Positions 39,137-50,145 of a stretch of 55,959 bases of DNA are shown here, piece by piece (the stretch's first letter is position 1; every line of letters starts with the position of its first letter). The DNA comes from Bacteroidales bacterium (GTDB taxonomy: Bacteria; Bacteroidota; Bacteroidia; Bacteroidales; VadinHA17): assembly GCA_025454755.1 (NCBI GenBank), contig JALONV010000034.1, positions 1 to 55,959 of the forward strand, given 5' to 3'. The position numbers and the translations under genes were made by a program. The notes under the pieces were generated by a model, which worked only from the letters and a program-made list of their open reading frames with translations, was not told the DNA's origin and ran no database searches.

Positions 39137-39170
39137 TGTTATTTTATTAACATTGTTATTTTAATAACAA
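39137..39170 (+). promoter_or_regulatory. Two tandem Rex-like dyads in the hydrogenase promoter
   Basis: Site A, TGTTATTTTATTAACA (39137-39152). Site B, TTGTTATTTTAATAACAA (39153-39170). Each has perfect outer arms (TGTTA/TAACA; site B extends to TTGTTATT-TT-AATAACAA). Their cores differ at one base of sixteen and are spaced 17 bases apart. The half-site TTGTTA...TAACAA is that of Rex, the NADH/NAD+ sensor that controls fermentation and hydrogenase genes in other bacteria. Site B ends 9 bases before the -7 box, so a bound protein would block initiation. Which protein binds is inference. Confidence 0.62.
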
Positions 39171-39179
39171 TAAATATAT

Positions 39180-39187
39180 TACTTTTG
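39180..39187 (+). promoter_or_regulatory. Bacteroidota -7 box of the hydrogenase operon
   Basis: TACTTTTG matches TAnnTTTG and lies 61 bases before the ATG of the first gene, immediately after the two dyads. Confidence 0.55.
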
Positions 39188-39248: not shown

Positions 39249-39620
39249 ATGAAAAAGATAAAATCACCTGAAGAGCTTAAAAAACTGAAGACTGAAGCCC
39301 TGGAAAGGCTTTATGGCAAAGAGAAAATCCGTGTGAGGGTCCATATGGGCACCAGCGGACTGGCATCCGGAGCTAAAGAAATATACGATTTCCTGAGGCT
39401 TGAACTGGAAAAGAGAAGCATCGAAGCTGATGTGATCGGAACCGGTGACATGGGCTACAGTTTTGCTGAGCCAACCATCGAAGTCAAACGTCCGGGAGAA
39501 ACCCCAGTTGTATTCGGAAATGTCGACAAGATCAAAGCCGATGAGATAATCGAGAAATATATTAAGAACGGCGAGTATGTTGACGGGATACTCCCGGTAA
39601 ACTACCAGTCAATCTATTAA
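39249..39620 (+). CDS. Cysteine-less ferredoxin-fold protein, first gene of the hydrogenase operon
   Basis: A 123-residue protein of the thioredoxin-like [2Fe-2S] ferredoxin family, as found ahead of NADH-linked hydrogenase genes in Bacteroidota. It shows an N-terminal helix, VRVHMGTSGLASGAKEIYDFL, IEADVIGTGDMGYSFAEPTIEVKRPG and a C-terminal EKYIKNGEYVDGILPVNYQSI. Positions that hold cysteines in the relatives I remember (TCG.A.GA and SGCMGYC) read TSGLASGA and TGDMGYS, so no cluster can be bound in that way; there is no Cys in the protein. It may be structural or regulatory. A GTG at 39243 gives two extra residues; ATG 39249 is preferred. Confidence 0.8.
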   Translation: MKKIKSPEELKKLKTEALERLYGKEKIRVRVHMGTSGLASGAKEIYDFLRLELEKRSIEADVIGTGDMGYSFAEPTIEVKRPGETPVVFGNVDKIKADEIIEKYIKNGEYVDGILPVNYQSIY

Positions 39621-39641: not shown

Positions 39642-41435
39642 ATGCCAAGAGAAAAGATGCAAATAATAGTGTGCGGCGGAACCAGTTGCAACGGTAATAA
39701 TGGTGAAGCAGTTATCGATAATATAAGGCTCGAGCTTGAGGCGAATGCGCTCGAGAATGATATCCGGGTTGTCAGGTCCGGTTGTTTCGGCCTCTGCACA
39801 ATGGGTCCGATAGTAAAGATCATGCCGGGCGATACCATCTATACCAAAGTAACTCCTGATGACGCTCATGAGATAGTAAGCGAACACATTATGAAAGGCC
39901 GCAAGGTCGAGAGGCTGCTCTATAAAGATCCGGAAGGAAAGAAGCCGCTCACTACCGAAAAAGAACTCACATCGCATAAGAAACAGATCAGGATAGCGCT
40001 GAGAAATTGCGGAATAATAAATCCGGAAAATATCGAGGATGCAATTGCACACAAGGGTTACGAAGCCCTTGCGACTGTTCTTACAGAACTGAAACCACAG
40101 GATGTGATCAGGATCATCAAGGACTCGGGTCTGAGAGGCAGAGGGGGTGGCGGCTTCCCAACAGGATTAAAGTGGGAAATAGCTTATAAAAACAAATCGG
40201 ACGAAAAATATGTAGTCTGCAATGCCGACGAGGGCGACCCGGGAGCATTTATGGACCGCTCTGTGCTCGAAGGTGATCCGCATGCTGTTCTGGAAGCAAT
40301 GATTATCTGCGGTTACGCCATTGAGGCACATAACGGTTTGATCTATATCCGCGCTGAATATCCTCTTGCCGTGGCACGCCTCAAGAGTGCCATTCAGCAG
40401 GCAAGGGATTATGGTTTGCTCGGAAAGGATATTTTGGGGACCGGGTTTGATTTCGACATTGATATCAGGTACGGTGCAGGTGCATTCGTCTGCGGAGAAG
40501 AGACAGCTTTGATCCACTCAATGGAAGGCTTGCGCGGTGAACCGACAGTCAAGCCACCCTTCCCCGCTGAATCAGGATTCAGGGGAAAACCCACCAACGT
40601 GAATAACGTTGAGACATTTGCATGCATATCACCTATAATATTGAAAGGTGCAGCCTGGTTCGCAGGCATCGGCACAGAAAAGTCAAAAGGAACCAAGGTT
40701 TTCGCACTGGCAGGTAAAATAAATAATGTCGGCCTCATAGAAGTCCCGATGGGAATCACTCTCCGTGAGGTGATCTTTGAAATCGGCGGAGGCATCAGGA
40801 AAGGCAAGAAATTCAAAGCCGCACAGACAGGCGGTCCTTCGGGAGGCTGTCTTACTGAAAAACATCTCGACCTGCCTATTGATTTCGACAATCTCACCGC
40901 TGCAGGCTCGATGATGGGATCAGGCGGTCTTATTGTAATGGATGAAGATGATTGCATGGTATCTGTTGCCAAGTTCTTCCTCGATTTTACCGTTGAGGAA
41001 TCATGCGGGAAATGCTCTCCATGCCGTATAGGGAACAAACGTCTTCATGAGCTTCTTGAGCATATAACCAAAGGTAAAGGCACTCTTGCTGACCTTGACA
41101 GGCTGAAGAATATGAGCCTGGTGATAAAGGATACATCACTCTGCGGACTGGGTCAGAGCTCGCCTAATCCTGTTCTTTCAACCCTGACAAATTTCAGGGA
41201 TGAGTATGAGGCTCATGTAACCCTGAAAAAATGCCCTGCAGGCAAATGCAAGGATCTGATGGAATATTTCATAATATCAGCAAACTGCGTGGGATGCACG
41301 GCTTGTGCAAGAGTTTGTCCCGTTGGTGCAATAACAGGCGAACGCAAGGAGCCGCACCTGATAAACCCATCAATATGCATCAAGTGCGGAGCATGCATGG
41401 AGAAATGCAAGTTTGACGCTATCATCATTCAATAA
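39642..41435 (+). CDS. hydB: NADH-linked hydrogenase flavoprotein subunit (HydB/NuoF-like)
   Basis: Carries FMN and NADH sites and electron-transfer clusters of the bifurcating [FeFe] hydrogenase. The 597 residues contain: an N-terminal ferredoxin-like domain with IVCGGTSCNGNNGEA and GCFGLCTMGP; the NuoF core with GLRGRGGGGFPTGLKW (about 160, NADH/FMN) and CNADEGDPGAFMDR; an SLBB segment; the [4Fe-4S] motif ESCGKCSPCRIG (about 453); and two C-terminal ferredoxin motifs, CVGCTACARVCP (about 548) and CIKCGACMEKC (about 578). An unusually strong purine-rich ribosome site, GGGGGAGG (39627-39634), precedes ATG 39642. Confidence 0.95.
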   Translation: MPREKMQIIVCGGTSCNGNNGEAVIDNIRLELEANALENDIRVVRSGCFGLCTMGPIVKIMPGDTIYTKVTPDDAHEIVSEHIMKGRKVERLLYKDPEGKKPLTTEKELTSHKKQIRIALRNCGIINPENIEDAIAHKGYEALATVLTELKPQDVIRIIKDSGLRGRGGGGFPTGLKWEIAYKNKSDEKYVVCNADEGDPGAFMDRSVLEGDPHAVLEAMIICGYAIEAHNGLIYIRAEYPLAVARLKSAIQQARDYGLLGKDILGTGFDFDIDIRYGAGAFVCGEETALIHSMEGLRGEPTVKPPFPAESGFRGKPTNVNNVETFACISPIILKGAAWFAGIGTEKSKGTKVFALAGKINNVGLIEVPMGITLREVIFEIGGGIRKGKKFKAAQTGGPSGGCLTEKHLDLPIDFDNLTAAGSMMGSGGLIVMDEDDCMVSVAKFFLDFTVEESCGKCSPCRIGNKRLHELLEHITKGKGTLADLDRLKNMSLVIKDTSLCGLGQSSPNPVLSTLTNFRDEYEAHVTLKKCPAGKCKDLMEYFIISANCVGCTACARVCPVGAITGERKEPHLINPSICIKCGACMEKCKFDAIIIQ

Positions 41436-49531: not shown

Positions 49532-50089
49532 TTACAGCTTTTTCAATATTTCCTTAAGTTGTTCCTGTGCTCTCGAAAGCCTGGAGAGGACTGTTCCCAG
49601 AGGCAGGTCGAGTATTTCTGCAGTCTCTTTGGTGGAGTAACCCTGCAGCATCCTCATTGCCACAATGATCCTGAACTTTGGGTCGAGTTCCTTTAAAGCT
49701 TTATTTACCAATTCCGAAGCATCTCTTTTTTCCTCGCTTTCAAAATCTGCTATTTCATACTCATACATTTCGCTGTTCCCTTTCTGCGAGAACATTGAAA
49801 AGAATCTTTTTCTTCTTTTTATCTCATTCAGGGTAAGGTTTATTGCTATCTTCTGAATGTAAGTCGACAATTTCGCCTCTCCCCTGAATTCCGGCAGGGA
49901 GTGGTATAGTTTAATAAATACCTCCTGTCCGATATCTTCAGCATAAACTGAATCTCCAAGCATCCCTTTGACTATCCGGGCGACCATTTTACGATACCGC
50001 TCCATGATCTCTCCGAAAGCCAGCTTATCGCCTGCTATTGAAGCCCTGACAAGTTCGTTTTCATCGGTCTGCCTGTACGATTCTTTCAT
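49532..50089 (-). CDS. ECF-type RNA polymerase sigma factor (SigW/RpoE-like)
   Basis: A 185-residue ECF sigma factor. Region 2 has FGEIMERYRKMVARIVKGMLG, AEDIGQEVFIKLYHSLPEF and STYIQKIAINLTLNEIKRRKR; region 4 has LDPKFRIIVAMRMLQGYSTKETAEILDLPLGTVLSRLSRAQEQLK. All segments are standard. First gene of a three-gene operon with a membrane protein and a Spy-like protein. A 22-base palindrome sits about 35 bases upstream of the start. Confidence 0.95.
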   Translation of the reverse strand: MKESYRQTDENELVRASIAGDKLAFGEIMERYRKMVARIVKGMLGDSVYAEDIGQEVFIKLYHSLPEFRGEAKLSTYIQKIAINLTLNEIKRRKRFFSMFSQKGNSEMYEYEIADFESEEKRDASELVNKALKELDPKFRIIVAMRMLQGYSTKETAEILDLPLGTVLSRLSRAQEQLKEILKKL

Positions 50090-50123: not shown

Positions 50124-50145
50124 ATTGTTAATTTTTATTAACAAT
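50124..50145 (-). promoter_or_regulatory. Perfect dyad upstream of the sigma factor operon
   Basis: Nine-base arms, ATTGTTAAT and ATTAACAAT, separated by TTTT. The half-site resembles those before the hydrogenase operon (TTGTTA/TAACAA) but with two more spacer bases. It lies between the LysM gene stop (50162) and the sigma factor start (50089), both on the minus strand. There is no T run after the stem, so an operator is more likely than a terminator. Confidence 0.5.

Follow-up and report, generated by a model that had tools for sequence, protein, structure and literature searches.

A probable Rex operator of two dyads in a fixed register upstream of hydrogenase operons in Bacteroidales

Two near-identical dyads precede a hydrogenase operon

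The window examined here (the entire 55,959 nt stretch of Bacteroidales DNA) carries an operon that begins with a gene for a small subunit-like protein and continues with genes for HydB, HydA and HydC (Table 1). The gene upstream of this operon lies on the minus strand, and its start is located 582 bp before the first of two dyads found at the operon promoter. A preliminary description of the locus had reasoned that an NADH sensor would suit an enzyme that uses NADH, and this redox logic, like the assignment to Rex, withstood the refuting conditions set out in that description.

Table 1. Features of the hydrogenase promoter and operon (window coordinates)
Feature	Sequence or match	Position	Strand	Remarks
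Second box (TTTAGA-N5-TATAAA)	TTTAGAACTATTATAAA	39116-39132	.	4 bp before dyad 1
Rex-type dyad 1	TGTTATTTTATTAACA	39137-39152	.	Outer bases C and T, core without the full 18-mer; basis: sequence and tandem partner in relatives
Rex-type dyad 2	TGTTATTTTAATAACA	39154-39169	.	Full arms TTGTTA/TAACAA; 20-mer at 39152-39171
Predicted 33 bp composite operator, two dyads		39137-39169	.	Start-to-start 17 bp, one base between; basis: recurrence across genomes
-7 box (TAnnTTTG) of the hyd operon promoter, Bacteroidota type	TACTTTTG	39180-39187	+	Basis: placement relative to the tandem in 14 promoters
First operon gene, small subunit-like protein (123 aa)		39249-39620	+	First ORF 3′ of the operator; no NCBIfam match
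HydB, NuoF-like, NADH-binding subunit	TIGR01959, E = 2.5e-145	39642-41435	+	Under the curated cut-off of the model
HydA, NADH-dependent [FeFe] hydrogenase, group A6	NF040763, 903.6 bits	41445-43232	+	Cut-off 765
HydC, NuoE-like	NF005722, 147.2 bits	43266-43748	+	Cut-off 141

The sequence agrees with the original account of two near-identical 16-base cores set 17 bp apart before a TAnnTTTG box. Specifically, a single base distinguishes the two 16 bp dyads, and 10 bp separate the end of dyad 2 from the box, which we take to be the -7 consensus of Bacteroidota promoters. The arms TTGTTA/TAACAA that had been ascribed to both dyads are present in dyad 2, but the outer bases of dyad 1 depart from them. 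Dyad 2 therefore shows in full the shape of a Rex operator (a palindrome of 18-20 bp whose arms, TTGTGA or TTGTTA, are separated by 6 bp), whereas dyad 1 shows only the core. Also, the 20-mer of dyad 2 agrees with the Thermoanaerobacter ethanolicus Rex motif ATTGTTA-N6-TAACAAT at all 14 specified bases.

A spacing of 17 bp is calculated to correspond to 1.62 helical turns, or about 223 degrees, and the two dyads thus occupy nearly opposite faces of the helix. This result overturns the initial assertion that the sites lie on nearly the same face, and with this phase between the dyads we abandoned the idea of same-face cooperativity.

Single dyads are frequent and close pairs are not

Within the window, the pattern TTGTTA-N4..8-TAACAA is found twice when 0.02 occurrences are expected, and none of 100 shuffled versions contained two. 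The second match (50125-50144) is away from the hydrogenase promoter and has an 8 bp middle. About 35 bp separate this 20 bp palindrome, TTGTTAATTTTTATTAACAA, from the start of a downstream gene on the minus strand (49532-50089), whose product resembles an ECF sigma factor by eye.

A looser core, TGTTA-N6-TAACA, has 31 matches across the genome, compared with nine for a reversed control. Sixteen of these cores are wholly within ORF calls and 15 are not, three of the latter overlapping an ORF end. Five of these 15 cores precede NAD-linked operons, namely both window sites and the cores that head a NuoE/NuoF/hydrogenase operon on contig C37 (C37:18127), a NuoE/NuoF operon on contig C47 (C47:30659) and nqrA (C107:4344), but the other ten adjoin genes that have no obvious link to NAD or redox metabolism. 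The 18-mer is found four times in the genome and its control twice. Because this background is high, we rejected single-dyad statistics as proof: a lone dyad is weak evidence, and the tandem is strong evidence. Likewise, the suspicion that the sites might occur at random in AT-rich DNA is countered by the tandem, which is far above its reversed control; the single 18-mer is only weakly enriched.

Of 295 genomes that represent the order, 65 contain the 33 bp tandem (one mismatch or fewer); these belong to 45 of the 183 genera sampled, and the reversed control is present in one genome. When exact dyads were sought without mismatch, allowing any gap from 0 to 30 bp and hence spacings of up to 46 bp, 74 close pairs were recovered (control matches in six genomes). 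The 17 bp spacing accounts for 52 of the 74, and the remainder are at 22-24 bp (5), 31-32 bp (3) and 42-46 bp (14). The inner six bases of the dyads vary while the 17 bp register stays. Among the matches listed are 40 one-mismatch tandems. One arm reads TGTGA in 23 of these, CGTTA in seven and TGTTT in six, and the remaining four have other changes. Eleven of the 52 exact 17 bp tandems contain TAnnTTTG on one strand, and therefore a dyad may overlie the -7 box in some promoters. A phylum sample contributed 246 further genomes, of which two belong to the order, and none of them has the exact tandem.

The 22-24 bp and 42-46 bp pairs form secondary spacing classes (in G202, G296 and other genomes), and several of the 42-46 bp pairs enclose a TAnnTTTG-like box.

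The tandem precedes hydrogenase operons of relatives

We surveyed the best 80 of at least 581 loci that carry relatives of hydB. A 17 bp tandem with no more than one mismatch per dyad is present upstream in at least 13 of the 80, a number that is a floor since five of the 67 tandem-less loci have less than 500 bp of upstream sequence. Five other dyad pairs within 60 bp are spaced by 23, 43, 52, 59 and 60 bp, so that 13 of 18 pairs at these loci have the 17 bp spacing. In a genome of the same genus (G343), 463 bp separate the tandem from a hydB that is 88% identical, compared with 473 bp in the window. As compared across upstream regions, the tandem is thus conserved in some of the relatives, namely at these loci and in G343. 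Two close relatives that lack the tandem, G161 of the same genus and G261 of the same family, do not count as evidence against conservation, because their best hydB matches are only 49% and 41% identical and the orthologous operon seems to be absent.

In 14 promoters, including that of the window, the -7 box starts either 8-10 bp (nine promoters) or 30 bp (five promoters) after the tandem. The box therefore has two set positions relative to the tandem, about two helical turns apart.

Rex proteins, as judged by Pfam family PF06971, are encoded in 44 of the 49 hydB-locus genomes searched. All 22 genomes with a dyad upstream of the hydrogenase genes (one core mismatch or fewer) have Rex, as do 22 of the 27 genomes without a dyad (p = 0.056).

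The tandem is associated with one type of Rex and with NAD(H)-linked genes

PF06971 matches 181 of the 295 genomes of the order. Rex is encoded in 64 of the 65 genomes with a tandem, compared with 117 of the 230 others, in counts uncorrected for relatedness. We divided Rex proteins into two types by the best PF06971 match, using E = 1e-15 as an arbitrary line. Again uncorrected for relatedness, the tandem is present in 63 of 131 genomes with a weaker-scoring Rex, in one of 50 with a higher-scoring Rex (E < 1e-15) and in one of 114 without a detected Rex. This last genome, G185, carries tandems although Rex was not detected in it. A Rex operator would be expected to be conserved in relatives with Rex and absent from those without it, and apart from G185 the tandem follows this pattern, though many genomes with Rex are tandem-less.

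Single 18-mers outnumber their control in the weaker-scoring group (432 versus 325), but not in the stronger-scoring group (16 versus 59) or in genomes without Rex (129 versus 279). The surplus of the weaker-scoring group is confined to tandem genomes. Specifically, there are 231 dyads versus 119 for the control in all 65 tandem genomes, and 203 versus 208 in the 68 tandem-less genomes with a weaker-scoring Rex. In seven genomes without detected Rex, dyads exceed their controls by two or more. Two of the seven, G126 and G230, were examined as counter-examples and set aside, as all six of their 18-mer dyads are inside coding genes.

A tandem and a rex gene share a contig in at least 27 genomes among the matches listed, our own genome included, with pairs picked by eye. 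The distance between them is 7.0-9.0 kb in 23 of these 27 genomes and 1.5, 19.6, 42.4 and 55.5 kb in the others.

To assign targets we considered 45 loci, from which four wider pairs (L187-L190) were left out to give 41 tandem loci. Eight of these are outside the assignment (L158, L164, L172, L177, L195, L197, L198 and L200; L172 and L177 are near contig ends). The nearest gene at the other 33 encodes NuoE or NuoE/F (17 loci), glutamate dehydrogenase (gdhA; six), the first protein of a HydABC operon (four), a DRTGG-domain protein (four, one divergent from a rex), HypA (one) or a 4Fe-4S protein (one). Pfam was used to check the divergent rex and seven of the first genes, among which the DRTGG protein of L173 is just below its cut-off; the other targets were read by eye from N-termini. 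Placement before the hydrogenase operon, the operon that encodes rex1 (see below), nqrA, a NuoE/F operon and the targets at these 33 loci is what would be expected of a Rex operator, as such sites are found in front of rex and of NAD(H)-linked genes for energy metabolism.

The Rex protein encoded in hydrogenase operons shares family PF06971 with the higher-scoring Rex of relatives. The usual Rex segment is QxRKDL. Four of five aligned higher-scoring proteins have QVTKDL as their recognition segment and the fifth has QIAKDL, whereas the hydrogenase-operon Rex has QVRRDL or QVRRDI. Four loci with a higher-scoring Rex carrying QVTKDL (L128, L129, L130 and L133) come with hydrogenase promoters (L098, L079, L077 and L095, respectively) that have no dyad.

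Two Rex paralogues are encoded in the genome

The genome that includes the window encodes Rex, a point that the preliminary description had proposed to check: two genes are above the PF06971 cut-off, and the product of one matches solved Rex chains. This protein, rex1 (contig C37), has a winged-helix domain (PF06971) and a CoA/NAD-type domain (PF02629), both over their cut-offs, in keeping with the N-terminal winged helix and C-terminal NAD-binding Rossmann domain of Rex proteins, and residues 2-200 of its 207 align with the solved Rex 5zz5 as the best match (E = 1.6e-31).

The rex1 gene closes a second hydrogenase operon. At the head of this operon is a dyad identical to dyad 2 (G000:C37:18127). 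A second dyad, with one mismatch, is exactly 17 bp upstream of it, and a TATATTTG box is found 9 bp downstream. The hydrogenase genes are separated from rex1 by genes for a short protein resembling a receiver and for a receiver-kinase (the kinase by Pfam), and 21 of the 32 rex loci inspected have a homologue of the receiver-kinase before rex. In the C37 operon as read on either side of 21.1-23.0 kb, no DNA-binding regulator besides Rex was recognized. In the same region (covered by L031 616-2788 and L032 1389-3552), a gene with an Fe-hydrogenase C-terminal domain and a small gene resembling one for a [2Fe-2S] protein are divergent from this operon.

The second paralogue, rex2 (contig C47), is divergent from multi-subunit hydrogenase-like genes and stands before hyp-type genes, as judged by eye. 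Its intergenic region (L033 3190-3463) contains two TGTGA-N6-TCACA dyads, a pattern that occurs six times in the genome and not at all in the control. These sequences suggest that rex1 and rex2 read different arms. On the same contig, a dyad composed of TTGTTA and then TAACAG precedes the NuoE/F operon. A protein of 155 aa with a cNMP-binding domain is encoded near rex2, and the sensor domain is the only domain found in it.

A second box may provide another input

Upstream of dyad 1 is a further box, TTTAGA-N5-TATAAA. In L048, L063, L072 and L074, a box of this form is found at a distance of 21-22 bp from the tandem, and the form is also present upstream of the tandem-less hydrogenase operons of L059, L090, L104 and L107. 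In a search of 46 genomes, its genome-wide frequency is not clearly above that of the reversed control. The box differs at two positions from an assumed Fur/PerR-type inverted repeat, close to TTTAGAAT-N-ATTCTAAA, which occurs seven times in the genome versus four in the control. The box may represent a second, oxygen- or iron-linked input and may bring in a second regulator. Some other copies are near genes that by eye resemble those for superoxide dismutase, glutathione peroxidase, cytochromes and molybdopterin oxidoreductases.

A model for control by two Rex dimers

Taken from sequence, the two dyads very probably constitute one composite operator for the NADH/NAD+-sensing repressor Rex. 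We infer that Rex binds and represses here, that NADH releases it and that two dimers bind jointly. When the NADH/NAD+ ratio is low, two Rex dimers would be bound to the 33 bp operator, one nearly opposite the other on the helix. Dyad 2 ends so close to the -7 box that, given the usual spacing of the -33 element, it would overlap the position of that element. The bound dimers would thus mask the DNA immediately upstream of the -7 box and block RNA polymerase, and by approaching from nearly opposite faces they could clasp the promoter. A rise in NADH would then cause release of Rex and production of the hydrogenase, by which NADH electrons would be discharged as H2. The likely reader of the site is rex1, the paralogue at the end of the C37 operon, which would also control itself because the head of that operon carries the same operator.

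A suggestion made at the outset, that the two dyads serve two distinct regulators, is unlikely, since the two share a core and recur together at a constant spacing. Reading of the site by rex2, or by both paralogues rather than rex1 alone, is also unlikely. The gene is present and the TTGTTA/TAACAG dyad is on its contig, but its own divergent region carries dyads of the TGTGA type, suggesting another preference, and the typical separation of tandem and rex in the linked genomes listed is that of the C37 rex1 operon.

We consider it improbable that only one dyad functions and the other is a leftover or weak spare that is never jointly occupied with it. A spare copy would hardly be expected to stay in register, yet the 17 bp spacing predominates both among exact pairs across the order and among pairs at hydrogenase promoters. 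The single dyads before nqrA, the C47 NuoE/F operon and the hydrogenase operons of several relatives are what speaks for this possibility. Joint occupancy is favored here because the register is fixed while the inner six bases vary.

CRP-type sites have the same geometry and the same TGTGA arm as Rex sites, and consequently motif shape alone cannot decide between the two families. An activator or repressor of the Crp/Fnr family, whose half-sites are almost the same as those of Rex (TGTGA-N6-TCACA geometry), would accommodate the TGTGA variants equally well, and the cNMP-binding-domain protein near rex2 might appear to be a candidate. However, its short length with only a sensor domain found, the way in which the tandem follows Rex type across 295 genomes and heads rex-encoding operons, and the confinement of the dyads in G126 and G230 to coding genes make such a regulator very unlikely. 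Finally, chance palindromes in AT-rich DNA, for which the abundance of single cores and their frequent location inside genes might argue, can be dismissed almost entirely on the shuffles, the reversed-pattern control and the set position relative to the -7 box.

A broader proposal, on which we are evenly divided, is that a lineage of Bacteroidales-like bacteria has evolved this operator (17 bp register, nearly opposite faces), which a dedicated hydrogenase-operon Rex paralogue reads as two interacting dimers. A graded NADH signal would thereby act as a steep switch on the genes for hydrogenase, for glutamate dehydrogenase and for proteins of the NuoE/F type, with the -7 box at either of two fixed distances from the operator. 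The predicted operator poses a clean question, namely whether two Rex dimers on a 17 bp register cooperate and so sharpen the response to NADH. Also, the operator pattern could be used to find NADH-controlled genes in uncultured hydrogen-metabolizing bacteria.

Comparison with known Rex systems

In the accessible portions of the published accounts, Rex represses when the NADH/NAD+ ratio is low (PMC5317091), and its binding motif is given as TTGTGAANNNNTTCACAA with a TGTGA arm for the general consensus (PMC6391272), as ATTGTTANNNNNNTAACAAT for T. ethanolicus (PMC5886521) and as TTGTTAANNNNTTAACAA for Clostridiaceae (PMC9600882). The Rex operators of Thermoanaerobacter and Clostridia have the same arms and spacing as the dyads described here (PMC5886521, PMC9600882), and hydrogenase and rex genes are Rex targets in Clostridia too (PMC8457756). 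The arrangement of sites differs, however. According to the same partial texts, the iron-only hydrogenase operon of Clostridium thermocellum has one predicted site, although some other targets have two (PMC8457756), and adhE of T. saccharolyticum has two sites, at -151 and -32 (PMC5886521). An abutting, fixed-register pair is not described for the Thermoanaerobacter and Clostridia systems in the portions compared (PMC5886521, PMC8457756).

The Rex regulon of Caldicellulosiruptor bescii, in the available part of its description, includes NiFe and FeFe hydrogenases, PFOR and rex (PMC6391272). Control of hydrogenase operons and rex by Rex is thus common to both cases, with gel shifts there and predicted binding here; in contrast, that text describes 18 bp sites and no tandem Rex operator (PMC6391272). 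The section available on Caldithrix abyssi reports a bifurcating [FeFe] hydrogenase cluster that includes rex, with a Rex site before rex, but this is one candidate site of the TGTGA type and rex is the first gene of the cluster (PMC5317091).

We found no published record of a Rex regulon in Bacteroidota, or of a fixed tandem Rex operator in any group, in the literature covered, which was mainly that outside subscription and in part excerpts, and the whole word 'Rex' is absent from the main text of a Bacteroides thetaiotaomicron regulon paper (PMC3878776). The published Rex work found, as far as its accessible text goes, concerns Gram-positive bacteria and thermophiles, and here the double operator, with its matching Rex type, marks a candidate redox regulon in about a quarter of the sampled genera (45 of 183) of one order. 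The dyad type and the control of hydrogenase by Rex were already known; the fixed double operator appears to be new, and its geometry is corrected and its reach much wider than in the preliminary description.
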